Shown here: piece after piece, positions 10,390 to 25,857 of the stretch
Numbering within the stretch: position 1 is the first letter of the stretch
Layout: every line of letters starts with the position of its first letter
NCBI RefSeq assembly: GCF_001661675.2
Contig: NZ_CP019603.1
Span: 558,001 to 622,000 of the forward strand
Length of the DNA stretch: 64,000 nucleotides
Origin: Croceicoccus marinus
GTDB taxonomy: Bacteria > Pseudomonadota > Alphaproteobacteria > Sphingomonadales > Sphingomonadaceae
Direction of reading: 5' to 3'
Translations under genes and position numbers: made by a program
The notes under the pieces: generated by a model
Database searches by the model: none
Seen by the model: the letters and a program-made list of their open reading frames with translations, nothing else
Told to the model about the DNA's origin: nothing

Positions 10390-10605
10390 TCAGGCTGTGG
10401 CGGCCATGATCTGCCAGATCGTCGTATCCGCGGTCGGGACCCGGCGTATCCGGCACAACATCTTGTCATTCTTCCAGAGTTCGGCAGACCTGCCGGAAGA
10501 CTCCTTGTGCGCATAAATCAGCGCGGCGGCAGCGTCGTTTGCATCGAATTCGACGGCCAGCTCGTCATTCTTGCCATTCTTGGGGAAAACCAACTTGTAG
10601 TGCAT
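10390..10605 (-). CDS. Small protein of unknown function (71 aa)
   Basis: A 71-residue protein starting MHYKLVFPKNGKNDELAVEFDANDAAAALIYAHKE and continuing with SSGRSAELWKNDKMLCRIRR. The alternation of strands and helices suggests a compact folded domain. ATG 10605 has GAGAGG upstream, and an in-frame TTG at 10611 is less likely. The upstream DNA (10660-10760) is strikingly AT-rich for this window and probably holds the promoter. I do not recognise the family. Confidence 0.65.
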   Translation of the reverse strand: MHYKLVFPKNGKNDELAVEFDANDAAAALIYAHKESSGRSAELWKNDKMLCRIRRVPTADTTIWQIMAATA

Positions 10606-10615
10606 GCGCAAACCT

Positions 10616-10655
10616 CTCTCATCCCCAACCCTACGGGTGGGGTCCCACCGAAAAG
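10616..10655 (-). promoter_or_regulatory. Leader hairpins upstream of the 10390-10605 gene
   Basis: An interrupted inverted repeat, CCCCAACCC-TAC-GGGTGGGG, is followed by the palindrome GTGGGGTCCCAC, just 5' of the gene on its own strand. They could fold in the leader RNA or act as an operator. No riboswitch class was recognised. Confidence 0.3.
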
Positions 10656-10770
10656 AATCGTTTTCGCTGAATAGATCCTTGTCCGAGACTTGCGCGTTTT
10701 CAACAAAATTTTAGCTATTATTTGTTAATTTAATGGTAGCGATAACATCGATTTACGCTCGATCTTCGCG

Positions 10771-10780
10771 ATTATTGTCC
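10771..10780. promoter_or_regulatory. Half-site resembling the operator at 18806
   Basis: ATTATTGTCC here is identical to ten bases of the operator 18806-18821, but the left arm and the downstream GAGAATTGTCAAA block are missing. It lies beyond the 3' end of the operon that the full operator controls. It may be chance. Confidence 0.2.
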
Positions 10781-10834
10781 GACATATGCTGGGGCCTGAA
10801 GGGCGGGGCGAAACGTGCTGCGATGCGCTGCCGA

Positions 10835-12553
10835 TCAGCGGCAGGCGCCGCCGTCGGGCCAGCCGGTCCAGCCCGGTCCGTGGACGAAACGCCCCGGCGC
10901 CGCGCCCGTATGCTCGCCTTTCGCAAGCACCTGTACACCGTTTACGAACACGTCGCGCACGCCAGTGGAATACTGGTGCGGCTCGGCATAGGTCGCCTTG
11001 TCGCCGATAGTCGCGGGATCGAAGATCACGACATCGGCGAACTTGCCCTCCGCCAGCAATCCACGGTCGCGGATGGACAGGTTTTCGGCGGGCAGCGCAG
11101 TCAGCTTGCGCACCGCTTCGGCCAGCGAAAGCGCCTGTTCCTCGCGCACATATTTGCCCAGCAGGCGGGCGAAATTGCCATAGGCACGCGGGTGGGTGTC
11201 GCTCTGCAGGAAGATGCCTTCCGCCGCGGGCGCCTCGGCGTCGGAGCCGAAGCTCATGTAGGGCAGGGCGGTCTGACGGCGCACGTTTTCCTCGGACATC
11301 AGGAAAAAGGCCGCGCTGATCCCGCTGCCGTCTTCCAGCAGCAGGTCGATCACCGCATCCTCGACGCTGACGCCGCGCATCTGCGCCACTTCGGCCAGGG
11401 TCTTGCCGGTCAGGCCTTTCATGTCGGGGTTCGAAAAGCCGACCAGCAAGACGTTTTCGCCGCCGCCGGCAAGGCGCAGCAGGTTCTCCCACCCGGTATC
11501 GGATCGGCGCATCTCGGCCACGATGCGGGCGCGGGTCGCCGGATCGCGCAGCCGCGCAAGCAGCGCGTCATAGCCGCCGTCCTGCGCCCAGGGCGGCGTC
11601 ACCGCGGCCAGGAAGGTGCCGCCCGCGGTATAGAGATACATGTCGGTGGTGATCTCCAGCCCCTCGGCCCGCGCGGCCTCGATCTGGGCGATCACTTCGG
11701 GCAGGCGGTCCCAGTTGTCCTTGCCCGCCAGCTTGAGGTGGTAGATCTCGGCCGGAACGTCGGCCTCGCGCGCGATGGTGACCAGCTCGTCGATGGCGGC
11801 GGCGATATTGTCGCCTTCCGATCGCATGTGGCTGATATACATCCCGCCGCATTGCCCGGCTTCCTGCAACAACGCGACCAGTTCGGGCGTCTCGGCGTAG
11901 TTTGCGGGCGCATAGATCAGCGAGGATCCGACCCCCAGCGCGCCTTCCTCCATCGCGGTGCGGACCAGCGCGCGCATGCGGGAAAGCTGCCGGGGCGTGG
12001 GATCGACATCGGCCTCGCCAAGCTCGTGCATGCGCACCGTGGTGGCGCCGACGAAGCTGGCGATGTTGGGCGACACGCCCTTGTCTTCCAGGAACTGCAG
12101 ATATTCGCCCAGCGTGGTCCAGGTGATCGGATACTTGATGTCGCCCTGACGCGCGGTCGCCTCGTCCTTCATCGCCTGGGTATAGGGGCCCATCGACCAG
12201 CCTTCGCCAAAGACTTCCAGCGTGATCCCCTGTTTCAGGTCGGACATGCCGCGTCCGTCGACGATCAGCGATTCGTTCGCCCAGCTCAGCATGTTGATTA
12301 AGCCGGGGGAGACCGCCATGCCGCTGGCGTCGATCTCGGTCCTGCCGCGGCCTTCGACCGTGCCGACATCGGCGATGCGGTCGCCGTCGATGGCGACATC
12401 GCCGACGAAGGGCGCGCCGCCCGATCCGTCATAGACCGTGCCGCCGCGAATGACCGTGTCGTGCATGGCCGCCTGCGGGACCGACGCGCAGCCCGCAAGC
12501 AGCGCGGCGGTGGCGGTCGCTAGGGCGGTGAAACGTCCGGCTGCTCGCGTCAT
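10835..12553 (-). CDS. D-aminoacylase-family lipoprotein amidohydrolase with altered metal site
   Basis: A 572-residue protein with a lipoprotein signal (LLAGC, Cys22), then an N-acyl-D-amino-acid deacylase-type fold: the beta domain DTVIRGGTVYDGSG, the TIM barrel and C-terminal GLLAEGKFADVVIFDP. Barrel residues matching known ligands are present: His in YISHMRSEG, His in EIYHLKLAGK and Asp in SFGSDAEA. The usual HxH after the first strand is replaced by NMLSWAN (87-93), and the usual Cys position by GEGWS. A single-metal or changed activity is likely. The ATG overlaps the serine hydrolase stop by 4 nt; it is last in the operon. Likely periplasmic release of D-amino acids from N-acyl forms, by inference. 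Confidence 0.8.
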   Translation of the reverse strand: MTRAAGRFTALATATAALLAGCASVPQAAMHDTVIRGGTVYDGSGGAPFVGDVAIDGDRIADVGTVEGRGRTEIDASGMAVSPGLINMLSWANESLIVDGRGMSDLKQGITLEVFGEGWSMGPYTQAMKDEATARQGDIKYPITWTTLGEYLQFLEDKGVSPNIASFVGATTVRMHELGEADVDPTPRQLSRMRALVRTAMEEGALGVGSSLIYAPANYAETPELVALLQEAGQCGGMYISHMRSEGDNIAAAIDELVTIAREADVPAEIYHLKLAGKDNWDRLPEVIAQIEAARAEGLEITTDMYLYTAGGTFLAAVTPPWAQDGGYDALLARLRDPATRARIVAEMRRSDTGWENLLRLAGGGENVLLVGFSNPDMKGLTGKTLAEVAQMRGVSVEDAVIDLLLEDGSGISAAFFLMSEENVRRQTALPYMSFGSDAEAPAAEGIFLQSDTHPRAYGNFARLLGKYVREEQALSLAEAVRKLTALPAENLSIRDRGLLAEGKFADVVIFDPATIGDKATYAEPHQYSTGVRDVFVNGVQVLAKGEHTGAAPGRFVHGPGWTGWPDGGACR

Positions 12554-14172
12554 GGTGCCTCTCCCTGTTGGGCGCTGTCGCTAGCGACCGGCGTGAACAG
12601 CAGGTCGCGGTAGTCCCAGCTGGAATCGGCGACGGGCGAAACCGCCTTCATCGTGATCCGGTCCACCGCGCCTTCGGCGTCGAGCTGGAAGGTGACATAG
12701 GCAGGCTCGAACCCTTCCTCGTCATAGCGGGTGACGAAAGTGTCGTATTGCCAGTGCTCCAGCGTGGCGGTGACGCCCTGCCAGTGCGGGTAATCGACTT
12801 TCAGCGCGCCATCCTGCTCGGTGATGGCGATCGTGCCGAACCATGGGTCCTTGTAGCGTCCCGCATAGGCGGACAGCGGGCGCGAGGGGCCGACATCGGC
12901 GGGCCTGCTTTCTGGCGCGGCAAGCGCCCGAGCAGCATCGCTGAAATAATCGTCGATGAACTTGCCGAATTCGGCGGGCCAGTCGTTGCCCTCGATCCCC
13001 AGGTAATGGTCGATCAGCTCGAATTGCAGGCCGGTCAGCAGGCCCGCTTCCTCGCTGTTGGTGGCAAGGAAGATGCCGACATCCTGTTCGGGCAGCAGGA
13101 TCAGCCGGGTGATCGATCCATAGACGCCGCCGCCATGCATGATCACGCGCGATCCCTGGTAATCGCGCACGTTCCAGCCCAGCGCATAGGTGTTGAACAG
13201 CGGCTCGGTTCGGTCGAGCGGGGCGGGGAAGCCGGGTTCGGGCATCAGCACGACGGGGGACCACATCTCGCGCGCCTGCTCCTCGCTGAACAGGCGGGCG
13301 TCCGCGGTGCCGGTGTCGGGAAGATCGCCAAGCGCAAGCTGCGCCTCGATCCAGCGGGCCATGTCGTTGGCGCTGGCGGCGATCCCGCCCGCGGGCGCGG
13401 CGACCTGCGATACGATCAATCTGTCGTCCAGCCGTTCCATCGTTCCCATGCCGCGGATCGGGCCGTCGATGCGCGCGTGCGGGTCAGCGATCAGCCTTTC
13501 GTCGCCGCGATCGTCGTTGCGGGTGGTGGCGCGGGCCATGCCGGCGGGGCGCAGGATGCGCTCGGTGGTGAACGCCTCCCAATCCTGCCCGCTGACCTTT
13601 TCGATCAGGCGGCCCGCGACCATGTAGAGGATGTTGTCATAGGCATAGCTGCCGCGAAAATCGTTCTCCAGCGGGATATGGCCCAGCCGTTCGACCACGT
13701 CGGCGCGGGTCAGGTCGCTGCGCGGCACGAACAGCAGGTCTCCCGCGCCCAGCCCCAGGCCGCTGCGATGGACCAGAAGGTCGCGCACCGTCATCTCGCG
13801 CGTGATCCAGGCGTCGGCCATGCGGAATTCGGGCATGTGGTCGATGACGGGATCGTCCCAGCCGATCTTCCCGTCGTCGACCAGTATGGCCAGCCCCGCG
13901 GCGGTGAAGGCCTTGGTCACCGAACCGATGGCGAAATTGGTGTCGGCGGTGACCGGCACGGGGTCCTCCAGGTCGGTGACGCCGAACCCGCGTGCGAAAG
14001 TGACTTCCCCGTCCTCCACGATGGCGACCGATGCGCCGGGCGCGCCGAAACTGTCGAGCAGCGCGTTCACCCGCGCCTCCAGATCGGCGGGCGGCGCGGC
14101 GGCGGCGGGCGCGGCGCACAGGCACAGGACAAGCGAGACGGGTGCCAGCAGGCGCGGCAATGTGCGGATCAT
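12550..14172 (-). CDS. Serine hydrolase, beta-lactamase / D-aminopeptidase family
   Basis: A 540-residue exported protein (signal peptide about 1-25). The penicillin-recognising fold shows SxxK as SVTK (Ser84, Lys87), a Tyr-x-Asn motif as YDN in GSYAYDNILYM, and HGG in VIMHGGGVYG. A C-terminal beta-rich domain of about 150 residues (DVGPSRPLSAYAGRYKDPWFG onward) resembles DUF3471-type tails of peptidase-like members. Relatives include D-aminopeptidases, D,D-peptidases and esterases. The longer open frame to 14490 is antisense shadow; ATG 14172 has GGAGG and overlaps the permease stop by 4 nt. Its neighbours favour cleavage of D-amino-acid-containing peptides. Confidence 0.85.
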   Translation of the reverse strand: MIRTLPRLLAPVSLVLCLCAAPAAAAPPADLEARVNALLDSFGAPGASVAIVEDGEVTFARGFGVTDLEDPVPVTADTNFAIGSVTKAFTAAGLAILVDDGKIGWDDPVIDHMPEFRMADAWITREMTVRDLLVHRSGLGLGAGDLLFVPRSDLTRADVVERLGHIPLENDFRGSYAYDNILYMVAGRLIEKVSGQDWEAFTTERILRPAGMARATTRNDDRGDERLIADPHARIDGPIRGMGTMERLDDRLIVSQVAAPAGGIAASANDMARWIEAQLALGDLPDTGTADARLFSEEQAREMWSPVVLMPEPGFPAPLDRTEPLFNTYALGWNVRDYQGSRVIMHGGGVYGSITRLILLPEQDVGIFLATNSEEAGLLTGLQFELIDHYLGIEGNDWPAEFGKFIDDYFSDAARALAAPESRPADVGPSRPLSAYAGRYKDPWFGTIAITEQDGALKVDYPHWQGVTATLEHWQYDTFVTRYDEEGFEPAYVTFQLDAEGAVDRITMKAVSPVADSSWDYRDLLFTPVASDSAQQGEAP

Positions 14173-15284
14173 GACGGTAAAGCCTCCGGAGCGCGTTTGA
14201 CGATGCGATAGGTGCCGATGACCAGCAGCGGCAGGACAAAGAGAAACAGCATGACATACCCGAACAGGCCGTAGCCCTGCGCGATCAGGTCGATCAGGCC
14301 AAGCCGCGCGGCCAGCACGCCCGATCCGATGACGACCAGCGCGCCGATGCCGATGCGGGCCAGCGGCGGCAGTTCGTGCCCGCGCCGCCGGGCGGCGGTG
14401 GCGGCGCGTTCTTCCAGCGCGTTCACCATGCCGACGCCGGTTTCCAGCAGCGCGATGAAGATCATCCCCTGGAACAGGAACGCAAACCAATCCGCGCCCA
14501 TCCGGTCCAGCAGGAAGTCGGATGGCAGGGCCGCATCGCCGATGGCGGGATAGAACGCGGTCATCGACAGGAACATGACCAGCGCGGGCAGCATGGCGAG
14601 CGGCCCGGCCAGCAGCCCCGCCACCACCGCGTCGCGCCGCGATGTCTGGTGCCGCAGGAAGGGCAGGATCAGCACCGCGCCAATGACGTTATAGCTGGCA
14701 TAGGTGACGCCGCCCCCGATCCAGCCGGTGCCGACGGGCGCATCGTTCCAGTTGCCGCCGATGGCGCCCCCGAACGCGATCAGCGCCAGCACCAGGAACA
14801 GCCCATAGACCGCATAGATGGCAAGCGAGGAGAAGCGAAACATCCGCTCTGCCGCCGCGGTGCCCATGCCGGCGACCGCGATGGTCAGCGCCAGCAGCAG
14901 CGCGGTGCCCGCCCATGTCGGCCAGGCAAGCAGTGCCGCGCCGATCTCTCCCGCGGCGGCGGCCATCACCGCGATCACCAGCACCATGAACAGCACATAG
15001 GCGATCTCGAACAGGATCCAGCCGGGGCCCAGCAGGTGCTGGAAGAACATGCGGTAGTCGCCCGCCTGCACCTGCCGCGCGAAGACGAATGTCAGCGCGC
15101 AGACCACGCTCCAGATACACATGGCGAGCAGCATGCCGAGGAAACCGCCCATCGGCCCGCTGCCCAGGAAGAACTCGGCAATCTCGCGCCCGGTGGCATA
15201 GCCGCCGCCGATCACCACCGCCTTGAAGGCGAAACCCGGCAGGACGAGGCGCCGGAACCAGTCGTCTGGAAGCCCCGCGCTCAC
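14169..15284 (-). CDS. YkvI-like membrane transporter
   Basis: A 371-residue protein with about ten transmembrane helices. It opens with the conserved FKAVVIGGGYATGREIAEFFLGSGPMGG segment typical of YkvI-type proteins, a distant branch of LeuT-fold amino-acid symporters. No YkvI substrate is firmly established; the gene partners point to an amino acid or N-acyl amino acid. The GTG start at 15284 overlaps the DgcN-like stop (GTGA), and its own stop overlaps the next ATG, so translation is coupled on both sides. The larger open frame upstream to 16253 is shadow of the DUF1611 gene. Confidence 0.78.
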   Translation of the reverse strand: MSAGLPDDWFRRLVLPGFAFKAVVIGGGYATGREIAEFFLGSGPMGGFLGMLLAMCIWSVVCALTFVFARQVQAGDYRMFFQHLLGPGWILFEIAYVLFMVLVIAVMAAAAGEIGAALLAWPTWAGTALLLALTIAVAGMGTAAAERMFRFSSLAIYAVYGLFLVLALIAFGGAIGGNWNDAPVGTGWIGGGVTYASYNVIGAVLILPFLRHQTSRRDAVVAGLLAGPLAMLPALVMFLSMTAFYPAIGDAALPSDFLLDRMGADWFAFLFQGMIFIALLETGVGMVNALEERAATAARRRGHELPPLARIGIGALVVIGSGVLAARLGLIDLIAQGYGLFGYVMLFLFVLPLLVIGTYRIVKRAPEALPS

Positions 15285-16321
15285 GATCCCAGGCAGCTGT
15301 CGAGCAGGCGGGCGAGCGGTGGTCCGCCGATCATCGGATCGGCCACCGGCAGGCCCAGCCGCGCCGCCTCGCGCTCCATCAGCGCATGCGCCTCGGCGCG
15401 GTCCATCCCGGCGGTGTTGAAGGCCGCGCCGCCGCAGCGGATCGCGGGATTGGTGCGCCTGCCCAGCATCGTGGTCAGCTCGATCACCTCCTCGATCGAA
15501 GGCAGCGCATAGGTTTCGTGGCCGAGAATATGCGTGCGCCCCGGCTGGTGGCAGACCACGAACACGTCGGGCTGGCTGCCGTGCAGCAGCGCAAGCGACA
15601 CGCCCGCATAGGCGGGGTGGAACAGCGATCCCTGCCCCTCGATCACGTCCCAGTGATCGGCAGCGGCATCGGGAGACAGCGCCTCTGCCGCGCCCGCCGC
15701 GAAATCGACGACCACGCTGTCGAGCGCGATGCCCCCGCCCGAAATCATGATCCCGGTCTGGCCCGAGGCGCGGAAATCGGCATCGATCCCGCGATCCGCC
15801 ATCGCCCGCTGCAGCGCGAGCGCGGTGTATTTCTTGCCCAGCGCGCAATCGGTGCCGACGGTCAGCAGACGCTTGCCAGCGCGCTTGCGGCCCGTGCCCA
15901 CCTGCAGGCCCGCGGGCGGCGTGCGGATGTCGACCAGCCGCGCGCCCGAACGCTGCGCCGCGGCGCGCAGTTCGGGAATGTCGGCCAGCCGCGCATGCAT
16001 CCCGCTGACGATGTCGAGCCCCGCGTCCAGCGCCTCTGCCAGCGAAGGGATCCACGCGGGCGCGATCTTGCCGCCCGAATTGGCGATGCCGATCACCAGC
16101 GAGCGCGCGCCCCTTGCCGCCGCCTCGCCCATCGTCAGCCGTTCCAGCCCCGCGCTGACGCTGGCCTGCGGCAGGGCGAATTCGCCGACGCACCGATCGC
16201 CCGCCCAGTCGCGCAGGCCGAAGGCGGTCTTGGCATAGCCAGGTTCGGTACAATCGCCCAGGAACAGCAGATAGGGCGGCGCGAAGCCGTGCCCGGCCGC
16301 TGCCGGTTCATCGGCGGACAT
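15281..16321 (-). CDS. dgcN: DUF1611 protein, DgcN-like D-glutamate N-acetyltransferase
   Basis: A 346-residue cytosolic protein of the DUF1611 family. The N-terminal Rossmann-like domain (PPYLLFLGDCTEPGYAKTAFGLRDW) is followed by a P-loop-like segment, GTDCALGKKYT (156-166), and the C-terminal ILGHETYALPSIEEVIELT. Members named DgcN acetylate D-glutamate in a marine D-Glu pathway, where DgcA then racemises the N-acetyl product. A DgcA-like gene is present at 20181, which supports the name. ATG 16321 is preferred (GGGAG 8 nt upstream) over an in-frame TTG at 16348. It follows the receptor gene by 23 nt and overlaps the permease by 4 nt. Confidence 0.75.
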   Translation of the reverse strand: MSADEPAAAGHGFAPPYLLFLGDCTEPGYAKTAFGLRDWAGDRCVGEFALPQASVSAGLERLTMGEAAARGARSLVIGIANSGGKIAPAWIPSLAEALDAGLDIVSGMHARLADIPELRAAAQRSGARLVDIRTPPAGLQVGTGRKRAGKRLLTVGTDCALGKKYTALALQRAMADRGIDADFRASGQTGIMISGGGIALDSVVVDFAAGAAEALSPDAAADHWDVIEGQGSLFHPAYAGVSLALLHGSQPDVFVVCHQPGRTHILGHETYALPSIEEVIELTTMLGRRTNPAIRCGGAAFNTAGMDRAEAHALMEREAARLGLPVADPMIGGPPLARLLDSCLGS

Positions 16322-16344
16322 CGCCCGCTCTCCCGCCTCCGCGA

Positions 16345-18723
16345 TCAAAAGCCTGCCGCCAGCGAGAGCCCGATGGTGCGCGGACGGATCGGCGAGGCGG
16401 AGACCAGCGTACCCGGACGGGTGCCGAATTCGCCCACGTTGGACAGCCCCAGCGAATTGGTCAGGTTGCGCGCATAGGCGGTGACGCTGAACGCGCCGAA
16501 ATCGACCCCGGCGCGCAGATCCACCTTTTCATAGCCGTCGAGGTCCAGCCGGCGGCCGAAGGTCGCGCGATAGGCCGGGTCGAACGCGGCGGACTGGTCG
16601 CTGATCAGCTGCACATCGCCGCCGACGAAGGCCAGCGCATCCCCGCCCAGCGCCCATTCGTAGTCGAGGCTGAGCGTGGTGCTGAGCTTGGGCGTATAGG
16701 GCAGTTCGTCCCCGTCGAGGCCGCCGGTGACCGGGGGCGTATCGTCGGTCAGCTTGGCATCGTTGTACGCGCCGTTGATCGCCAGCTGCAGGCCCGCGGT
16801 GGGGCGCAGCGTGGCGCTGACTTCCGCGCCATAGACGCGCGCGCCGCCGCCATTGTCGTTCGCACCGACCGGCCCGATGGCGCTGTCGAACGCGCCGAAA
16901 ATCAAGATGTCGTTCCAGTCGAGGTAATAGACCGCCCCGTCGAAGGCGAAGCTGCGGTCCGCCGTCTCGCCCCGCAGGCCGATTTCATAGCTGATCAGCG
17001 TATCGGCGTCGTACTGCACGGGGAAATCCGGACCCGCGCCGGGCGGGATGACATTGGGGCCGCCCGGACGATACCCCTTGGCCACTCGCGCATAGACCGA
17101 GCTGAGATCGCCGAGTTCGTAGCGGGTCGATGCCGACCAGGTGAACACGTTCTCGCTCGATTCGCCGTCGGTGATGTTGGGCGAGGGGAGGCCCTGCAGC
17201 GGCTGGAACGCGCCCTGTTCGATCTGGACGACGTTCTGCTCGTTATGGCTGTAGCGGATGCCGCCGCCGACTTCCCAGCGCGGTGTGATGTGCAGCTCCG
17301 CATTGGCGAAACCGGCGATCTCCTCGTAATCGGAATTGAGGTCGAGCGTCAGCAGGTCGGCAAAGCCCAGCAGCGTGGGATCGAACAGCTCGCCGGTGTC
17401 CTGCACGAAGGGGATCAGCTCCTGGTGCAGTTCGACCTTCTCGTCGGTGTAATAGCCGCCGACCTGCCATTCGAACACTTCGGAATCCTGCGAGGAGAGG
17501 CGCACTTCCTGCGTGAATTTCTCCTGCTCGAGCGGCGCGGCAAGGATCGCGCCGATGGTGTCGGTGCGCCCGCCCAACGCCTGGTAGACGAAGGTGACGG
17601 TGGGGCCAAAGCCGATGGTGTTGTCGGTCGTCTGGTCCTGCTCCAGCGTGCCATAGCTGGTGACCGAGGTCAGCGTCGCGAAGCCCAGGTCGAAGTCCAG
17701 CGTGCCGTTGTAGAGCCGGTAGTCGACATCATTGTCGTCGGGAAAGAACTCCACGCGGCTCAGGCCGCTCAGCGCCTCGCCGGTGAAGGGATCGGTGGTG
17801 ATGGGCTGCTTGGTGACGGGATCGGCTTCGTACGAGCTTGGCGATCCGGCGCGAATGTTCTGCGCGATCGCGGTCAGCCGCAGCGACAGCGCGTCGCTGG
17901 GCTGGAACAGCGCGGAGATACGGCCGCCATAGATGTCCGCCTCGTCCGCTTCCTTTTCGAAATCGCGGCCGATGATGTCGACGAAACCGGCCTGCCGGCG
18001 ATAGAAGCCGCTGGCGCGAATGGCGATAGTGTCGCCCACCGGCACGTTGACCAGCGCATTGCCCGACCAGCCGGTGCCGCCGCCATCGACGAATTCGACG
18101 CCCGCCTGCGCGCGCATTTCATATTCGCCCAGCGCGGGCCGGTTGGTGACGAAGCGGATCACCCCGCCCAGCGAGTTGGATCCATAGAGCGTACCCTGCG
18201 GCCCGCGCAGCACTTCCACCCGCTGAAGGTCGAAGGTGTCGAAATCGCCCGCCAGCACCGCGGCATTGCCCAGGCTGGAACTGGACCCGAAGGGGGTGTC
18301 GTCGACATAGATCGCGACAGTGGAGCCGACCGATCCGGTGTTGATGCCGCGCAGGATCACGCGCGTCTCGCCCGGATTGCTCTGCGTGATGCTAAGGCTG
18401 GGGACCAGCTCGGCATAGTCGGAGAAGCTGCGGGCCTGCTGGCGCTCCAGCGTATCCTCGCCCACCACGCTGATCGACTGGGGGATCTCGGCCAGAAGCT
18501 CGGTCCGCTTCTGCGCGGTGACGACGATGTCGGCGGGGTTCTGCACGCGTTCGACCCGGACGGGTTCGTTCTGCGCCGCCCCGTCCTGCGCCGCCGTTTC
18601 AGCGGCGTCGGCTGCGGCGGCGACGGCCGGCATCGCCAGCGCCATGACGGCCGCGCCCGCATGCATTCCGGCACGCCGCATCGCCCGGTTCATCACCTGC
18701 CCCGATGTCGTGATCTGCACCAT
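16345..18723 (-). CDS. TonB-dependent outer-membrane receptor (D-amino-acid/peptide module)
   Basis: A 792-residue receptor: signal peptide, a TonB-box-like IVVTAQKR, a plug with LRGINTGSVGSTVAIYVDDTPFG and VEVLRGPQGTLYGSNSLGGVIRFVTN, then a beta-barrel ending in the expected terminal aromatic (LSLAAGF). The start may be ATG 18723 or ATG 18693; the latter gives a more typical signal peptide, and the open frame beyond is rejected. It is first in the five-gene operon and driven by the operator-promoter at 18806-18839. The substrate is inferred to be a D-amino-acid-containing peptide or derivative from its neighbours. Confidence 0.9.
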   Translation of the reverse strand: MVQITTSGQVMNRAMRRAGMHAGAAVMALAMPAVAAAADAAETAAQDGAAQNEPVRVERVQNPADIVVTAQKRTELLAEIPQSISVVGEDTLERQQARSFSDYAELVPSLSITQSNPGETRVILRGINTGSVGSTVAIYVDDTPFGSSSSLGNAAVLAGDFDTFDLQRVEVLRGPQGTLYGSNSLGGVIRFVTNRPALGEYEMRAQAGVEFVDGGGTGWSGNALVNVPVGDTIAIRASGFYRRQAGFVDIIGRDFEKEADEADIYGGRISALFQPSDALSLRLTAIAQNIRAGSPSSYEADPVTKQPITTDPFTGEALSGLSRVEFFPDDNDVDYRLYNGTLDFDLGFATLTSVTSYGTLEQDQTTDNTIGFGPTVTFVYQALGGRTDTIGAILAAPLEQEKFTQEVRLSSQDSEVFEWQVGGYYTDEKVELHQELIPFVQDTGELFDPTLLGFADLLTLDLNSDYEEIAGFANAELHITPRWEVGGGIRYSHNEQNVVQIEQGAFQPLQGLPSPNITDGESSENVFTWSASTRYELGDLSSVYARVAKGYRPGGPNVIPPGAGPDFPVQYDADTLISYEIGLRGETADRSFAFDGAVYYLDWNDILIFGAFDSAIGPVGANDNGGGARVYGAEVSATLRPTAGLQLAINGAYNDAKLTDDTPPVTGGLDGDELPYTPKLSTTLSLDYEWALGGDALAFVGGDVQLISDQSAAFDPAYRATFGRRLDLDGYEKVDLRAGVDFGAFSVTAYARNLTNSLGLSNVGEFGTRPGTLVSASPIRPRTIGLSLAAGF

Positions 18724-18805
18724 GTCCCTAAGTCCCCTATGCCCGCGCGTCGGCCGTTTTCGCCCGGCGCGCGATATTGATCCCAGAACCAGCATATTTC
18801 CAATC

Positions 18806-18839
18806 AGGACATTATTGTCCTGCTATGAGAATTGTCAAA
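18806..18839 (-). promoter_or_regulatory. Promoter and palindromic operator of the receptor/dgcN operon
   Basis: On the minus strand TTGACA (18838-18833), 16 nt, then AATAAT (18816-18811) form a near-consensus promoter. A perfect inverted repeat, AGGACA-TTAT-TGTCCT (18806-18821), covers the -10. The -35 overlaps the stop codon of the transporter gene upstream. The same layout, including an identical 13-mer GAGAATTGTCAAA, occurs at 23259-23292. Confidence 0.75.
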
Positions 18840-20184
18840 CCCTGATCGCCTCGCTGTCATTCGTGGCCGCAGCGACCGCCGCTTCCTGTTCGTCCAGCGC
18901 CGCGCGGGCGGCGAAGACCGCGCGCGCAGGCGTGTCGAGCGCGCGCAGGAACAGCGCCGCCGCCGCCGCGATCACAGCCAGCAGCGCGAAATAGGCGGGC
19001 ACGGGCAGCACGCTCCACAAGCTGCCGACCAGCCCGCCCGCAAGGCTGCCGGTGAAGGTGGCGAAGAACCAGCTCGCCACCGTGCTCGCGCCCAGCCGCT
19101 GCGGGGCAAGCCGTGCGAAAATGCCTAGTCCGTTGGGCAGGATATAGAGCTCGCCCGTAGTCAGAACGACGAAGAAGGCGGCCAGCCACAGCCAGCTGGC
19201 GCGCGCACCGTCCTGCCAGCCCGCGACCACCGCCAGCAGGACATAGGCCCCGGCCACCACCAGCGCGCCGATCGCCATCTTGTGCAGCGGCGAATGTTCC
19301 GTGCCTGCCGCCGCCTGCCGCCGCCAGCGCGCCAGCAGGAAGGGGGTCATTAGGATCACCAGCAGCGGGTTCAATGACTGGAACCACGTCATCGGTATCT
19401 CGAACGATCCCGCGGCGCGGTCCACCCCGCTGTTGGCCCACAGCGCGACCGTATTGCCCACCTGCTCATAGGCGCTGCGGAACACGGTGACCGCCAGCAG
19501 CAGCCCGCCCAGCAGCATCAGTGTCGGGCGGTCGAAGCCGTCCCGGAAGCTGGCCTTGCCGCCTGCCAGGGTGACCGGTGTTCGGTCCTCCACCGGCAGA
19601 TATTTGCCGCCCCAGACATAGATCGCGAGGCCCGCCGCCATGCCGATGCCCGCCGCGCCGAAGCCATAATGCCAGCCATAGAACTCGCCCAGGGTCCCGC
19701 AGATCAGCGGCGCGAGGAAGCCGCCGATGTTCACGCCGACGTAATAGATATTATAGGCCCACGGCCGGCGCGGGTCGTTCGCGCCGTACAGATCGTTGAT
19801 CTGGCTGGGCAGGCTGGGAAGGAAGAACCCGTTGCCCAGCGCAATGGTGCCAAGCGCGATGTAGAACAATGGCTCGAATGTCATCATGAAATGGCCCAGC
19901 GCCATGATCGACCCGCCCAGGATCACCGCGCGGCGCTTGCCCAGCCAGCGGTCGGCGATGATGCCGCCGAAGATCGGCGTGAAATAGGCGAATGCGGTAT
20001 AGGTGCCGTAGATGACCGAGGACATGCCCTGCTCGATCAGCAGTTCCAGCGTCATGTAATAGACGAGCAGCGCGCGCATGCCGTAGTAGGAGAACGTCTC
20101 CCACATGTTTGTCAGGATCAGGATCGTCAGCCCGCGCGGCTGGCCGAACCAGTTCTGTCCGGACGCGGGGGCGGCGGCGCTCAT
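18835..20184 (-). CDS. POT/PTR-family proton-dependent oligopeptide transporter
   Basis: A 449-residue inner-membrane MFS protein with about twelve helices. The POT signature MWETFSYYGMRALLVYYMT lies at residues 26-45, and a second family segment is YNIYYVGVNIGGFLAPL near 145-160. These symporters import di- and tripeptides. ATG 20184 overlaps the DgcA-like stop by 4 nt, so it is translated with the racemase gene. It would bring in peptides that enter through the receptor or are trimmed by the serine hydrolases. It is a little shorter than typical POT proteins but shows no obvious gap. Confidence 0.88.
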   Translation of the reverse strand: MSAAAPASGQNWFGQPRGLTILILTNMWETFSYYGMRALLVYYMTLELLIEQGMSSVIYGTYTAFAYFTPIFGGIIADRWLGKRRAVILGGSIMALGHFMMTFEPLFYIALGTIALGNGFFLPSLPSQINDLYGANDPRRPWAYNIYYVGVNIGGFLAPLICGTLGEFYGWHYGFGAAGIGMAAGLAIYVWGGKYLPVEDRTPVTLAGGKASFRDGFDRPTLMLLGGLLLAVTVFRSAYEQVGNTVALWANSGVDRAAGSFEIPMTWFQSLNPLLVILMTPFLLARWRRQAAAGTEHSPLHKMAIGALVVAGAYVLLAVVAGWQDGARASWLWLAAFFVVLTTGELYILPNGLGIFARLAPQRLGASTVASWFFATFTGSLAGGLVGSLWSVLPVPAYFALLAVIAAAAALFLRALDTPARAVFAARAALDEQEAAVAAATNDSEAIRV

Positions 20185-21182
20185 GCCGGGTCGGGCCCGC
20201 CCCAGACGTCGCCGCCTGCCCAGATCGTGCCGTGACTATAGGTGACCGACGGCTCGCGGTCCTGCGCGAGGAAGGTCGGCCCGTCGAGGTCGACGAAATC
20301 GCACAGCTGCGCCAGCACGAAGGCGGGGGCCATCGCAAGGCTGGTGCCGACCATGTTGCCGACCATCACCTGCAGGCCCGCCTCGCGGCTGGCATTCGCG
20401 ATCTTCAGCGCCTCGGTCAGGCCGCCGCATTTGTCGAGCTTGATGTTGTTGACGGTAAAGCGCCCGGCCAGGCCCGGCACGTCGGCGCTGGTCAGCGCGC
20501 TTTCGTCCGCCGCGACCGGCATCGGGCTGGCGAAACCGTCCAGATCCGCCTCTCGCCCTCGCGCCAGGGGCTGTTCCAGCAGCAAGACGCGGCAGGCATC
20601 GAGCGCGGCGGCCAGATCGCCCAGCTCGCCAAGCGTGAAGCCCTGGTTGGCGTCGACCCCCAGCCACACATCGGGCCGCGCGGCGCGGATGGCCTGCACG
20701 CGCGCAATGTCGAGGTCGAGTTCGCCGGTCAGCTTGACCTTGATCGCGCGCGCATCGGCATAGGCGCTGGCGCCTGCCGCCATCTTTTCGGGACTGTCGG
20801 CACCCAGCGTGAAGGTCGTGACCACCGGCCTGGGTTCGGGCACGCCGGCCAGCTGCCAGACGGGCATGCCTTTCTGCTTAGCCTCAAGATCCCACAGCGC
20901 GCAATCGACCGCGTTGCGGCCCCCGCCCGCGGGCATCAGCGCCTGCAGCGCCGTGCGGTCGATACCGGCCTCGATCCGGCTGCGCGCGGCCTCTATGTCG
21001 GCCATCATGGTTTCGGCGTCGTCGTGCAGATAATAGACGCCGCCGCCTTCGCCGCGCCCGCGATGCGTGCCGTCCGACAGGGTGACGACCACCACCTCGG
21101 TCTCCTCGAACACATGGCCCGAGATGCGGAAGGGCGCGGCAAGGCGCAATGTCTCGCGCCTTGCGTCCAGTGTCAGCGCCAT
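20181..21182 (-). CDS. dgcA: Enolase-superfamily racemase/epimerase, DgcA-like
   Basis: A 333-residue cytosolic enzyme of the muconate-lactonising / dipeptide epimerase group. Acid-base and metal residues are visible: KVK (Lys148, Lys150), Asp177 (GVDANQG), Glu203 (LLEQPL), Asp226 (AADES) and Lys248/251 (IKLDKCGG). Two readings are possible: N-acetyl-D-glutamate racemase (DgcA), favoured by the DgcN-like gene nearby, or L-Ala-D/L-Glu epimerase of muropeptide recycling, favoured by the peptide transporter. ATG 21182 shares one base with the upstream stop (TGATG). The longer open frame to 21779 is shadow. Confidence 0.82.
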   Translation of the reverse strand: MALTLDARRETLRLAAPFRISGHVFEETEVVVVTLSDGTHRGRGEGGGVYYLHDDAETMMADIEAARSRIEAGIDRTALQALMPAGGGRNAVDCALWDLEAKQKGMPVWQLAGVPEPRPVVTTFTLGADSPEKMAAGASAYADARAIKVKLTGELDLDIARVQAIRAARPDVWLGVDANQGFTLGELGDLAAALDACRVLLLEQPLARGREADLDGFASPMPVAADESALTSADVPGLAGRFTVNNIKLDKCGGLTEALKIANASREAGLQVMVGNMVGTSLAMAPAFVLAQLCDFVDLDGPTFLAQDREPSVTYSHGTIWAGGDVWGGPDPA

Positions 21183-23182
21183 CAGTAGTTCGTCCCGATG
21201 CCGAACAGGTGGAAGGCCGCGGCCAGCCACACCATCACGATGCCTGCCAGCAGCAGCAGCACGCTCCAGACCTTGGCGGTCCAGCGGCGGCCCCCGGTCC
21301 AGACCTGCCACAGATACCAGGCGAATACCGCCAGCCCGCCGATGAAGATCACCAGAGTCAGCACCTGAAGCACGATGGTGATGGCATCGAACGCCCCGCC
21401 CAGATTGGTAAGGTCGTCGAACATCAGCGTGATGAGGACACCCCAGCCGACCAGCACCAGCACCATCAGCAGCGCGGCAAGGCGCGACAGGCGGTAGCCG
21501 AGCCGCCGGCGGCCTTCCAGTGGCAGCGGCGCGCCGTAATGGCGGCGCACCAGTGCGCGCACCGGCCACAGCAGCGCGGTCAGCAGCAGCACGACCAGCG
21601 CCGCATAGATCAGCGGCATCAGCAGCGCGGCATTCTTGTACCAGGGCGCGCGTTCGAACACGGTGAAGGCGGACATGATCGACAGGCTGAATCGCGTGAC
21701 CTCGCCGTCCTCGACCCGCGCGGCAAGGCGGGTGTGGCTGTTGAGGTCCTGCCACACGAAGGGCTCGACCTCGACCCATTTGGCGGGGCGGCCGGTCAGG
21801 CCCATGCCGGGCGGCAGGATCAGCTCGCCGTCGGGGCCGACCGAGACGCTGGCCTGCCCGATCAGCTGGGTGATGTTGAGAAAGGTCGAATCCGCCCGGC
21901 GCGAAGCGATCCAGTTGCCCGCCAGCATCTGCGCGTGTCGTGCCGATTCCTCGGGCGGGACGCGGCTGGTGATCGGATCGCCGGGGAAGTACCGGTCGGC
22001 GAATTCGGTGAACAGGTTGATGCGCACGCCGTTCACCGCGCCTTCCTCGCCCCCGCTGTTGAACGAGGCGTAGAGGCCAACGTCCTGATCCATGAACAGA
22101 TGGAGCGAGGTGTGGAAACCGCCCAGGTCGCCGAGATGCGCGATCACGCGCTCGCCGTTGATGTTGGTCTCGAAGAAACCCATCATCATGCGGTCCAGCG
22201 GCGGCAGCAGCGTGGTGGCGGTGGTGTGCATGTAGCGCGCGGTCTCGGGCTTCAGGATGCGATTGCCGTCAAGTTCGCCATTGTTCAGATGCGCGATCAT
22301 GAAGCGCGCCATGTCCTCGCCGGTGGAGGACAGCGAACCGGCGGGCGCGGGGCCGACGATCTCGAAGGGCACGACCTCGCCCGACATCTTGTCATAGCCG
22401 GTCGCCATGTTCGGCTGCAGCCTTGCGGGCAGCGGCTGGCGGAAGCTGGAATCGTCCATGCCCAGCGGCTGGAAGATATGCCGCTCGACATAGTCGTCGA
22501 ACGGCTCGCCCGACACGCGCTCGACGATATAGCCGGCCAGCGAGGTGCCATAGTTCGAATAGGCGGGCGTGGTGCCGGGGGCGAAGATGCGCTGCGGCAC
22601 CCAGCGCTTCAGCAGCTCGTCATAGGGGGGGATGGCGTCGGGATCATCGCCGATCAGGTCCTTGACCTGCTCCTCGAACCCGGCGGTATGCGTCATCAGC
22701 TGGCGCATGGTCACCGGCTGCCCCTCGTAATCGGGGATGGTGAAATCGAGGTACTGGTTGATGTCGGCGTCGAGGTCGATCCTGCCCTGTTCGACTTGCT
22801 GCATCACCGCGGTCCAGGTGATCAGCTTGGACACCGAACCGGGACGGAACAGGGTCTTTTCGGGGTCGACCGGCGTGCGGCTCTCGACATCGGCATAGCC
22901 ATAGCCGCGCTGGGTCAGAATCTCGCCGTCCTTGACAACCACCACCACGGCGCCGGCGATGTCGCCGTCGCCGATTGCATAGGGCAGATAACCGTCGAGC
23001 CAGGCGTCGAGATCGCTCTTGGTCAGCGCCTCGCCGCGATTGCCCGAATTGTCGGCAGGGGGCTGCGCCGCGGCTTCGCGCGGTTCGGGCGCGGCCTGCT
23101 GGGCGGTCAGCATCGTGCCTGTCGATGCCAGCAGCATGCAGATGGCGAACAGCATTGCGGCGGGTAATCTGGTTATGCGCAT
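21182..23182 (-). CDS. Serine hydrolase with C-terminal membrane domain
   Basis: A 666-residue protein with a signal peptide (1-28) and a beta-lactamase/D-aminopeptidase domain: SxxK as SVSK (Ser116, Lys119), YSN in PAYSNYGTSLAGY, and the HLGDLGGFHTSLH region at the third motif position. The last 150 residues contain four predicted transmembrane helices, so the catalytic domain should face the periplasm while anchored in the inner membrane. It is first gene of the minus-strand operon with dgcA and the POT transporter, transcribed from 23259-23292. Probable role: trimming peptides beside the transporter (inference). Confidence 0.82.
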   Translation of the reverse strand: MRITRLPAAMLFAICMLLASTGTMLTAQQAAPEPREAAAQPPADNSGNRGEALTKSDLDAWLDGYLPYAIGDGDIAGAVVVVVKDGEILTQRGYGYADVESRTPVDPEKTLFRPGSVSKLITWTAVMQQVEQGRIDLDADINQYLDFTIPDYEGQPVTMRQLMTHTAGFEEQVKDLIGDDPDAIPPYDELLKRWVPQRIFAPGTTPAYSNYGTSLAGYIVERVSGEPFDDYVERHIFQPLGMDDSSFRQPLPARLQPNMATGYDKMSGEVVPFEIVGPAPAGSLSSTGEDMARFMIAHLNNGELDGNRILKPETARYMHTTATTLLPPLDRMMMGFFETNINGERVIAHLGDLGGFHTSLHLFMDQDVGLYASFNSGGEEGAVNGVRINLFTEFADRYFPGDPITSRVPPEESARHAQMLAGNWIASRRADSTFLNITQLIGQASVSVGPDGELILPPGMGLTGRPAKWVEVEPFVWQDLNSHTRLAARVEDGEVTRFSLSIMSAFTVFERAPWYKNAALLMPLIYAALVVLLLTALLWPVRALVRRHYGAPLPLEGRRRLGYRLSRLAALLMVLVLVGWGVLITLMFDDLTNLGGAFDAITIVLQVLTLVIFIGGLAVFAWYLWQVWTGGRRWTAKVWSVLLLLAGIVMVWLAAAFHLFGIGTNY

Positions 23183-23258
23183 GGGACCCCCATTTCGACC
23201 CTTGTTGCCTCGGCCAGTTTTCGCGGCTAACCTTGAACGGATAGCTTTTGACCTAACC

Positions 23259-23292
23259 GGGACATAATGATCCTAATCAGAGAATTGTCAAA
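23259..23292. promoter_or_regulatory. Divergent promoter-operator between serine hydrolase operon and regulator
   Basis: On the minus strand TTGACA (23291-23286), 16 nt, CATTAT (23269-23264) should drive the 23182 operon. On the plus strand TTGACC (23248-23253), 18 nt, CCTAAT (23272-23277) could drive the regulator. The imperfect palindrome GGGACATAATGATCCT (23259-23274) overlaps the minus -10. It is followed at the same 21-nt offset by the 13-mer GAGAATTGTCAAA shared with 18827-18839. This suggests autoregulation plus control of both operons. Confidence 0.7.
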
Positions 23293-23948
23293 TGGGGAAA
23301 TCTGAACCCATATCCGCCGCACCGCAGCATCCCACGCTGGGCAGCCTGCTAAAGGGGCTGCGCGGGCGAAACGGCTGGACGCTCAAGGAGATGAGCGCCG
23401 AGACCGGCATCCCCGTCTCGACCCTGTCCAAGGTCGAGCATGACCGGCTGACGCTGACCTATGACAAGCTGATGCAATTGAGCCAGCGGCTGGGCATCCG
23501 CCTGTCCGAACTGTTCGCCGAACCGGAGGAGCGCGAGGAAGAGCGCAGCTTCACCGGACGGCGCAGCATCGGCAAGCCCGAGCGCGCGGTGCGGGTGACG
23601 ACGCCCAATTACGATTATCACTACATGTGCCCCGAACTGCGGCAGAAGATGATGATCCCGATCGTCACCACGATCCGCGCCAGGACGGCGGAGGAATTCG
23701 GCAAGCTGGTACGCCATCCGGGCGAGGAATATATCCACGTGCTGGAAGGCAGCATCGTCGTGCTCACCGAATTCTACGACCCGGTGACGCTGCACAAGGG
23801 CGAGGGGATCTATATCGATTCCGACATGGGCCACGCCTATGTCGTCGCCGACGGCTGCGACGAGGCGCAGGTGCTGGGCGTCTGTTCCAGCCGCGAGCAG
23901 GATTTCGCGGATTCGCTGATGACCATCTACGGGCCGAAACGGGGCTGA
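23292..23948 (+). CDS. XRE-family transcriptional regulator with C-terminal cupin
   Basis: A 218-residue regulator. An XRE helix-turn-helix spans about residues 15-75 (LGSLLKGLRGRNGWTLKEM, PVSTLSKVE). A cupin sensor domain follows in about 110-195 (HPGEEYIHVLEGSIVV, LHKGEGIYIDSDMGH). Cupin-XRE regulators commonly respond to amino acids, amines or sugars. The ATG at 23292 directly adjoins the shared operator, so the leader would be very short. It is divergent from the serine hydrolase/dgcA/POT operon and is the likely regulator of both operons. Confidence 0.88.
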   Translation: MGKSEPISAAPQHPTLGSLLKGLRGRNGWTLKEMSAETGIPVSTLSKVEHDRLTLTYDKLMQLSQRLGIRLSELFAEPEEREEERSFTGRRSIGKPERAVRVTTPNYDYHYMCPELRQKMMIPIVTTIRARTAEEFGKLVRHPGEEYIHVLEGSIVVLTEFYDPVTLHKGEGIYIDSDMGHAYVVADGCDEAQVLGVCSSREQDFADSLMTIYGPKRG

Positions 23949-23960
23949 TTTCGGGTTGGG

Positions 23961-24215
23961 TTAGGCGGGGGCGGGGACGCTCCCGGTTTCGCTGACAGAG
24001 ACGACGCCGATGCAGCCGCGCATCTTCTCGGCCGCGATGCGCGCCGACTGGGGCGACAGGCCGCGTAGCACCATCTCCACCCGCATTTCCGTGCCCCGCG
24101 TCGTGACCTTCAGGTCGGGCGCGGCAAGGTCGTGCTGCGCCAGCAGACCGATCAGGCGGCATAGCAGGCCCGCGCTGGACTGCGCGGTCAGGGTCAGGCG
24201 GACGGGCGGGGTCAT
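23961..24215 (-). CDS. Small ACT-like protein coupled to the amino-acid dehydrogenase
   Basis: An 84-residue protein starting MTPPVRLTLTAQSSAGLLCRLIGLLAQHDLAAPDLKV. The beta-alpha-beta-beta-alpha-beta pattern and the early hydrophobic/turn region resemble an ACT domain like those in acetolactate synthase small subunits, which bind amino acids. Its ATG overlaps the dehydrogenase stop by 4 nt, so the pair is translated together. A regulatory subunit or amino-acid sensor for the dehydrogenase is a reasonable inference. It converges on the XRE-cupin gene with 12 nt between. Confidence 0.55.
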   Translation of the reverse strand: MTPPVRLTLTAQSSAGLLCRLIGLLAQHDLAAPDLKVTTRGTEMRVEMVLRGLSPQSARIAAEKMRGCIGVVSVSETGSVPAPA

Positions 24216-25270
24216 GCCGCCGCACGCTTTCGCTCGCGCCCGGCGCGGGCGATGCGCTGGCGGGCCAGTCGATCGGCGGCCCGGTGAGGGGGCAGCGCAT
24301 TGGCATCGGCAAGGTCCAGCACGGCGGCCAGGCGGCGGGGCGTGTCCTCCACCCGGCGCGCTGCTTCGGCGGCGGTCCAGCCCAGATGCTCTGCCGCGAC
24401 ATTGATGATGCCGCCTGCGTTCACGACATAGTCCGGCGCATAGAGCACGCCGCGCCGCGCCAGCAGATCGCCGTCATCGGGCGCGGCAAGGACATTGTTC
24501 GCCGCTCCGCAGACCAGTTTTGCGCGCAGCAGCGGCACGCTGCGACTGTCCAACACGCCGCCCAGCGCGCAAGGCGCGAAGATGTCAGCCTCTGCCGCGA
24601 CGATGTCGCCGGGCTGGACGATGCGTGCACCGAACTCGCGAGCAGCCGCCTCGGCGCGGTCCGCATCGACGTCGGCCACGACCAGTTTCGCGCCCGCTTC
24701 GTGCAGATCGCGGCACAGATGCGCGCCGACATGGCCCAGCCCCTGCACCGCGACCGTCAGCCCGGCCAGATCGCTGCCCAGCCGCCGCGCGGCGAGCTGC
24801 ATCGCCAGGAACACGCCCCGCGCGGTCCATGGCGAGGGATCGCCGCCGGGTTTTCCCTCCGCCGCGTCCAGCCCCGCGACATGGCGCGTCTCGCCCCGCA
24901 CGATGGTCATGTCCGCGACCGATGTGCCGACGTCCTCCGCGGTCAGATAATCGCCGCCCAGCGCTTCGACGGCGCGGCCGAAGGCGCGCATCAGCGCGTC
25001 CCGGTTGAACGGGCCGGCGGGCATGGCGATCACCGACTTGCCGCCGCCGAGCGGCAGTTCCGCCAGCGCGTTCTTGTAGGCCATCCCCTCGGCCAGCCGC
25101 ACCGCGTCTGCCATCATCGCCGCGTCGCTGTCATAGCGCCAGAACCGGCACCCGCCCGCCGCTGGGCCCAGGCGCGTCGAATGCAGCACGATCACGCCGC
25201 GCAGCCCGCTGGCGGGATCGGCGATGGGGATCACCGTCTCGGGCGGATGGGCGGGGGATGGATCGTTCAT
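24212..25270 (-). CDS. Glu/Leu/Phe/Val dehydrogenase family protein
   Basis: A 352-residue cytosolic enzyme of the leucine/phenylalanine dehydrogenase branch. It has the catalytic-lysine region AEGMAYKNALAELPLGGGKSVI, the NAD-binding Rossmann motif GLGHVGAHL and Asn-rich CGAANNVL. It deaminates a branched-chain or aromatic L-amino acid to the 2-oxo acid with NAD reduction, or the reverse; the substrate cannot be set by eye. ATG 25270 is preferred because AGGAGA lies just upstream, while the in-frame ATG at 25297 lacks one. It is divergent from an Lrp/AsnC gene, its probable regulator. Confidence 0.82.
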   Translation of the reverse strand: MNDPSPAHPPETVIPIADPASGLRGVIVLHSTRLGPAAGGCRFWRYDSDAAMMADAVRLAEGMAYKNALAELPLGGGKSVIAMPAGPFNRDALMRAFGRAVEALGGDYLTAEDVGTSVADMTIVRGETRHVAGLDAAEGKPGGDPSPWTARGVFLAMQLAARRLGSDLAGLTVAVQGLGHVGAHLCRDLHEAGAKLVVADVDADRAEAAAREFGARIVQPGDIVAAEADIFAPCALGGVLDSRSVPLLRAKLVCGAANNVLAAPDDGDLLARRGVLYAPDYVVNAGGIINVAAEHLGWTAAEAARRVEDTPRRLAAVLDLADANALPPHRAADRLARQRIARAGRERKRAAA

Positions 25271-25362
25271 TTTTGCGTCTCCTGTCTGATGGGGCATGAT
25301 CGCCCATGCGGCGGGGAAAGTCCGACCTCATTTGCGGCGAAGGGCGGATATACGGGTGGATT

Positions 25363-25380
25363 TCACCGACCCTGCGGTGA
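25363..25380. promoter_or_regulatory. Palindrome upstream of the Lrp/AsnC gene
   Basis: TCACCG-ACCCTG-CGGTGA is a perfect 6-bp inverted repeat with a 6-nt spacer, 12 nt before the Lrp/AsnC start and in the region divergent from the dehydrogenase. It is a candidate operator for the Lrp-type regulator. Confidence 0.4.
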
Positions 25381-25392
25381 TAAGCGAAATGG

Positions 25393-25857
25393 ATGACCGA
25401 CATGCTCGATCCCTTCGAACGAAAGATCCTGGCCGAATTGCAGCGCGATGCCAGTCTGACCACGGCAGAGCTGGCCAAGCGCGTGGGCCTGTCCGCCTCG
25501 CCCTGCTGGCGGCGGGTGGAGCGGCTGGAGAAGGAGGGCATCATCGCCCGCCGCGTGGCATTGGTCGACCGGCGCAAGATCGGCCTCAACACCCAGGTCT
25601 TTGCCCAGGTGAAGCTGAGCGCGCACGGCCACGCGCATCTGGACGAGTTCACCCGCGCCATCGCCGAGCTGCCCGAAGTGCTGGAAGCCTATGTGCTGAT
25701 CGGCGTGTTCGATTTCATGCTGCGTATCGTGACCAGGGACATCGACGCCTATGAACGGCTGTTCTTCGACAGGCTATCGAAGATCCCCGGCGTGCAGGAA
25801 ATCAACTCGACCGTGGCGCTGTCCGAGATCAAGTCGACCACCGCGCTGCCGGTTTAA
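25393..25857 (+). CDS. Lrp/AsnC-family transcriptional regulator
   Basis: A 154-residue regulator with an N-terminal AsnC-type helix-turn-helix (LDPFERKILAELQRDASLTTAELAKRVGLSASPCWRRV in successive blocks, about 4-45) and a C-terminal RAM/ACT-like amino-acid-binding domain (VLEAYVLIGVFDFMLRIV, PGVQEINSTVALSEIK). It is divergent from the dehydrogenase gene and probably controls it in response to an amino acid. The ATG at 25393 matches family length; a second ATG at 25402 is possible. Confidence 0.88.
   Translation: MTDMLDPFERKILAELQRDASLTTAELAKRVGLSASPCWRRVERLEKEGIIARRVALVDRRKIGLNTQVFAQVKLSAHGHAHLDEFTRAIAELPEVLEAYVLIGVFDFMLRIVTRDIDAYERLFFDRLSKIPGVQEINSTVALSEIKSTTALPV

Follow-up and report, generated by a model that had tools for sequence, protein, structure and literature searches.

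The closest described counterparts of the locus considered here are DgcN and DgcA, the enzymes of a D-glutamate pathway that is given EC 2.3.1.312 and 5.1.1.25 in PMC11747546 and that is also mentioned in PMC10845958. Among dipeptide epimerases, the T. maritima enzyme (2zad) is reported in PMC13338154 to accept dipeptides with hydrophobic C-terminal residues, and in the mlr microcystin route MlrB is periplasmic and MlrD an inner-membrane protein, as given in PMC12474180. Within the open literature searched, no paper joined DUF1611 to an epimerase, DUF1611 itself being met in papers on Dickeya, and none combined a dipeptide epimerase with Sphingomonas and peptidoglycan or with a TonB/serine hydrolase context.

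The window, meaning the whole 64,000-nucleotide stretch of Croceicoccus marinus DNA that was analysed, holds a locus that resembles the DgcN/DgcA system in combining a DUF1611 protein with an enolase-superfamily racemase, which are approximately 45-53 and 37-51 percent identical, respectively, to sampled true pairs. Unlike that system, it is not a two-gene pair, and it has extra transporters, putatively exported hydrolases and another promoter. The reading we favour, at odds slightly better than even (roughly 0.53), is that the locus serves the regulated scavenging and conversion of peptides containing D-residues through a sister type of DgcN/DgcA, the D-residue probably being neutral or hydrophobic and not D-glutamate.

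Two operons and a shared promoter element

An earlier note had described nine genes between 10835 and 23948 as a scavenging module for D-glutamate and D-peptides, and all nine were found at approximately those coordinates by open reading frames, Pfam and NCBIfam. Operon 1, on the minus strand, comprises three genes whose ends overlap in the ORF coordinates: SerH1 (21182..23182), an S12 serine hydrolase (PF00144) with, by eye, a signal-like N-terminus and hydrophobic C-terminal segments; the enolase-superfamily epimerase (20181..21182), with N- and C-terminal MR_MLE domains (Pfam) and the variant loop PFRISGHVF; and a POT/PTR2 peptide:H+ symporter (18835..20184; PTR2/POT in Pfam), which is over the TIGR00924 cut-off (261 bits vs 130). 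Operon 2, a tight run on the same strand, consists of a TonB-dependent outer-membrane receptor (TBDR; 16345..18723; plug and barrel domains in Pfam), the DgcN-like DUF1611 protein (15281..16321; DUF1611 N and C domains in Pfam), a YkvI-family permease (14169..15284), SerH2 (12550..14172; S12 serine hydrolase, PF00144 and DUF3471, signal-like N-terminus by eye) and a D-aminoacylase-like amidohydrolase (10835..12553; Amidohydro_3, lipoprotein-type N-terminus by eye). The DUF1611 ATG lies about 20 nt past the receptor stop (DUF1611 residues are numbered here from an upstream TTG at 16348), and the permease, which starts with GTG, SerH2 and the last gene each overlap the preceding stop. The XRE-cupin regulator (23292..23948, plus strand; HTH_3/HTH_19 and Cupin_2 in Pfam), which putatively controls both operons, is divergent and lies upstream of SerH1.

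Both serine hydrolases retain intact S12 motifs (SVSK/YSN/HLG and SVTK/YDN/HGG). The epimerase has its MR_MLE domains, the conserved Lys, Asp and Glu positions, which we take to be catalytic, and the DLD motif, as is typical of the dipeptide epimerase/N-acylamino acid racemase type. Because no Pfam or NCBIfam model matches the permease (NCBIfam was run with a shortened start), its label is taken from relatives, several of which NCBI names "YkvI family membrane protein". The D-aminoacylase-like protein is without the HxH and Cys of the mlr-side amidohydrolase, presumably the metal motif of D-aminoacylase, and has MLSW and GEG there instead; it may possibly have another metal site or an altered activity. 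Most of the related proteins from these loci likewise have MLSW or MMDQ in place of HxH and Glu in place of Cys.

Upstream of each operon stands TTGACA-N16-AATAAT or CATTAT, with an operator-like GGA..AT.ATGTCC lying over the -10 box. Both elements are on the minus strand and were found by pattern and matrix: element 1, TTTGACAATTCTCTGATTAGGATCATTATGTCC (23260..23292), abuts the regulator start codon, and element 2, TTTGACAATTCTCATAGCAGGACAATAATGTCC (18807..18839), overlaps the POT stop codon. They are the top promoter-like sites of 10400-24300, with 11/12 and 10/12 (4 found vs 1.9 expected), and share TTGACAATTCT, which occurs exactly twice (2 found vs 0.26 expected with at most one mismatch). 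A pattern built on the two sites matches the genome at these places only, with no third match in 4.1 Mb at up to three mismatches and none in the reversed control, so that the common promoter element proposed for the two operons is borne out by both the exact repeat and the joint pattern. The bare 14-base operator is less exclusive, with six genome matches at up to one mismatch, four of them outside the locus, against two in the control; these four one-mismatch matches are our loci L087, L088, L089 and L090. A half-like operator, GGACAATAAT, occurs at 10771-10780, past the end of operon 2.

Among relatives, a 33-nt matrix trained on 34 of their sites gave 92 matches in 59 of 76 loci and none in the reversed control, 32 of the matches being training sites and 60 not; at least two matches occur in 31 relative loci. 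The operator retains at least 11 of its 14 letters in 31 of the 37 loci with the divergent regulator-SerH1 arrangement. For ten further cluster loci, the element is missing from L201 and weak in L208, and it was found in none of 45 loci around DgcN/DgcA genes, 30 of which are about 4 kb or shorter. A scan for the palindrome GGACA-N4-TGTCC was weak, with shuffles matching equally in many loci, and the 33-nt matrix was used in its place. The locus is apparently co-regulated, the XRE-cupin protein being predicted to bind the element, and self-control of the regulator is plausible because element 1 abuts its start.

Comparison with DgcN and DgcA

Both window proteins score below the curated cut-offs: the DUF1611 protein reaches 446 bits against 480 for DgcN (NF041892) and the epimerase 379 bits against 400 for DgcA (NF042940). 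Among 387 alphaproteobacterial genomes, DgcN is over its cut-off in 104 and DgcA in 145, and dgcN and dgcA stand side by side in 58 of the 60 loci around the best 30 of each, the genomes of the two sets overlapping; the window genes form no adjacent pair, POT and TBDR intervening. In subsample trees, 23 epimerases of the window-type cluster make up a clade of their own (SH-aLRT 100) apart from 15 DgcA proteins, and 23 cluster DUF1611 proteins do likewise (97) apart from 15 DgcN. Both proteins therefore fall outside the DgcN and DgcA groups, the placement that the earlier note had itself named as refuting. One over-cut-off DgcA, L169, fell with the E. coli L-Ala-D/L-Glu epimerase (AEE; 1jpd), outside DgcA, in one tree.

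The arginines that are invariant in the sampled D-glutamate enzymes are absent from the window pair. R22 and R51, which we take to bind the Glu side chain in DgcA, occur in 29 of 29 sampled DgcA proteins and in none of 65 cluster epimerases; there residue 22 is Gly in all 65, residue 51 is Tyr in 64 and Phe in one, and residue 25 is Phe in 64 and Ile in one, the window protein having G22 and Y51. Likewise, R275 is found in 30 of 30 DgcN proteins, and the 82 cluster DUF1611 rows have Leu (76), Met (3), Ile (2) or Val (1), with Leu in the window. A changed amino-acid target is probable, since both key enzymes are without the residues that mark the known D-glutamate enzymes. R19 (63/65) and R43 (64/65) of the cluster epimerases could act as carboxylate holders, which would speak against a non-acidic reading. 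What stands of the original proposal is a two-operon locus that fits D-amino-acid peptide uptake and processing by gene content; equating the pair with DgcN/DgcA acting on D-Glu does not hold against the scores, the separate clades and the lost arginines, and the D-Glu reading at face value was set aside on these grounds.

A broader sample, made up of the loci of a DgcA profile search, 49 stretches and the window, provided 67 pairs readable within one stretch. R51/R275 are both present in 41 of these (two places being counted twice) and both absent in 25, including 11 of the window-type cluster, and one pair is mixed (L195, H51/R275), so that the two states agree in 66 of 67. Nine additional pairs comprise eight R/R and one with neither, and the 64 cluster pairs from the relative loci (the best 80 of 573) are all without both arginines. 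Outside the R/R group, residue 275 is L, M, V, A, F, G, S, D or E, the alignment being uncertain for L182 and L215. In a joined-pair tree of 58 rows, from which two repeats and seven cluster rows were left out, the 39 R/R rows and one H/R row form one clade (97), with all other pairs outside; the tree shows several kinds of pair, of which DgcN/DgcA with its arginines makes up one branch. The states change two times and one time on the joined-pair tree, and three and two times on the epimerase tree. With one to three branch changes only, the R51/R275 agreement mostly reflects shared ancestry and is no independent proof; an independent-pairs test found 2 pairs, too few to reach 0.05. The DgcN score alone does not define the type, because the DUF1611 genes at L217, L218 and L226 (G983) are over the cut-off without R275, each accompanied within its stretch by an epimerase that lacks R51. 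The DgcN name at these three loci may be wrong.

We read ten genomes of the window's order sample for which both scores were listed and in which the variant cluster is accompanied by a DgcN match over the cut-off at another place. Nine of them (G556, G800, G1022, G907, G952, G1060, G1004, G871 and G1077) have, beside the cluster or, in G1022 and G1004, a rearranged form of it, a true pair of neighbouring genes that carries all of R22, R51 and R275; this coexistence argues for separate substrates. In the tenth genome, G983, the other copy is Y51/D275 and, at 480.4 bits, barely over the DgcN cut-off. In the window genome the variant stands alone, with neither a second DUF1611 gene nor a canonical DgcN. 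In eight of nine stretches (L220-L226 and L228), the other dgcN-type pair has a D-aminoacylase-like gene no more than a few kb away.

Conservation among relatives

Relative loci were taken as the best 80 of 573 confirmed in a reference-genome scan with the DUF1611 protein, a set biased to close relatives. Within this set, loci of Sphingomonadales, Lysobacter, Steroidobacter, Povalibacter and Rudaea show the same genes and gene order again, though with variations. Gene counts use the 64 of the best 80 of 573 that are longer than 20 kb, picked by DUF1611 similarity; there, an S12 hydrolase occurs in 62, the epimerase and the XRE-cupin regulator in 55 each, YkvI in 52, a SerH2-like protein in 38, the receptor (at least 25 percent identity) in 37, and POT and the D-aminoacylase-like gene in 21 each. 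The anticipated co-occurrence in related genomes was thus recovered, as seen in the recurring order and in the epimerase and YkvI counts. An XRE-cupin homologue of at least 35 percent identity is present in 64 of the 80 loci (again the best 80 of 573).

A further component seen in relatives is an M19 dipeptidase, presumably of the family that cleaves D-residue dipeptides, which occurs in 25 of the 64 long loci (one representative, at least 35 percent; from the best 80 of 573), the family it represents being found by single-linkage clustering in 49 of 76 loci from the same set. A search of the window's own genome for M19 gave no match. Five loci (L010, L014, L027, L033 and L067) have DUF1611, M19 and two S12 genes without the cluster epimerase, possibly a paralogous locus.

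A proposed route and its alternatives

The direction of transport, the enzyme activities, the substrate and the mode of regulation are predictions from sequence. According to our favoured reading, the receptor would carry peptides over the outer membrane, and the two S12 hydrolases and the D-aminoacylase-like protein, with their export-type N-termini by eye, would trim them to products that enter the cell through POT and the YkvI permease. Inside, the freed D-amino acid would be N-acetylated by the DUF1611 protein and the epimerase would invert the alpha carbon to give the N-acetyl-L form or, alternatively, act on an imported dipeptide. The DUF1611/epimerase pair would be related to DgcN/DgcA as a sister type whose side-chain specificity has changed. 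The XRE-cupin protein would most likely repress both operons and itself through the operator over the -10 boxes, releasing the DNA once a D-amino acid or derivative occupies its cupin domain.

A non-acidic substrate is likely and D-glutamate is a possible one. That the locus scavenges D-Glu or muropeptides, with a pair that has diverged from DgcN/DgcA yet kept its function, seems quite improbable to us: the top named matches are indeed DgcN and DgcA, each at most 10 percent under its cut-off, the window genome has no second DUF1611 gene, and the catalytic-type residues and DLD are retained, but the sample-invariant arginines are gone from both proteins, the clades are separate, nine genomes keep the true pair beside the cluster, and gene context and promoter differ from those of true dgcN-dgcA. 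The missing arginine does not in itself exclude Glu, because NCBIfam calls the T. maritima-type model an L-Ala-D/L-Glu epimerase. We hold it unlikely that there is no serial pathway, with imported dipeptides as the direct substrate of the epimerase (L-X-D-Y to L-X-L-Y) and the DUF1611 protein acetylating a D-amino acid apart. Consistent with that arrangement, the epimerase gene overlaps SerH1 and POT and not DUF1611, and in nine of the 64 long loci (best 80 of 573) DUF1611 is present but no epimerase reaches 50 percent identity. The window epimerase also has the fold family and the conserved Lys/Asp/Glu positions in common with the E. coli and T. maritima enzymes, and the cluster loop, PFRISG[HYF]VF, is unlike that of E. 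coli, having no RGSR, and resembles the T. maritima PFHITGSVS; given the hydrophobic dipeptides reported for the latter enzyme, this likeness also counts for the favoured reading. The DLD motif, which would also fit, does not discriminate, since E. coli AEE and 4gfi have it too. Against separate action, true pairs and several sister variants have the two genes side by side, and the R51/R275 states are concordant in all but one of the 67 pairs.

It is very improbable that the locus handles non-ribosomal or cyanobacterial D-peptides as kin of the mlr route. In Sphingosinicella microcystinivorans, we presumed the POT near an MlrC-family gene to be MlrD and the neighbouring S12 gene to be MlrB. 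Between the presumed MlrD and the window POT, identity is 43-46 percent, and a tree places this MlrD with 25 cluster POTs against other POTs of two genomes (support 92, long branches). The presumed MlrB shares 29 percent identity with SerH1 and has an Amidohydro_3 gene on its far side, so that the mlr cluster, too, has an S12 hydrolase, a POT transporter and an amidohydrolase nearby. However, 10 kb of mlr, read for ORFs of 150 aa or more, showed no DUF1611, YkvI or epimerase homologue, the MlrC family (PF07171) was not found in the window genome, hydrolase similarity is low, and many genomes with the cluster are not known to belong to microcystin degraders. The POT sample is small, and the L034-side POT (28 percent) was placed outside the group. 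Kinship of the window POT with the microcystin-route transporter is thus possible and weakly supported, a lead only.

Returning to the favoured sister-type reading, it is tempting to suggest a broader version, which we hold as tentative: DgcN/DgcA may be one branch of a wider family of D-amino-acid N-acetyltransferase/epimerase pairs, in which DUF1611 residue 275 and epimerase residue 51 would track the side chain (Arg/Arg for D-Glu, an acidic 275 for basic side chains, and Leu/Met with Tyr for neutral or hydrophobic ones), the window pair being a neutral/hydrophobic member that comes with a receptor, hydrolases, transporters and a regulator of its own. Dead bacteria leave behind D-amino-acid peptides, a large store of nitrogen that is broken down slowly. 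If the reading is correct, the acetylate-and-flip route would extend beyond D-Glu, the names DgcN/DgcA or L-Ala-D/L-Glu epimerase would mislabel the group in Sphingomonadales, Lysobacter and Steroidobacter relatives, and the compact operator would provide a ready test of the inducer.

Finally, the region next to the locus, at 24212-25857, holds a Leu/Phe/Val/Trp-type dehydrogenase (ScyB-like, 305 of 600 bits) with a divergent Lrp-like gene. The suggestion that this amino-acid dehydrogenase may connect with the pathway proved weak, a homologue occurring in 10 of the 80 relative loci (best 80 of 573). Beyond it, at 25875-27521, lies an alpha-L-fucosidase-like protein with, by eye, a twin-arginine-type leader.
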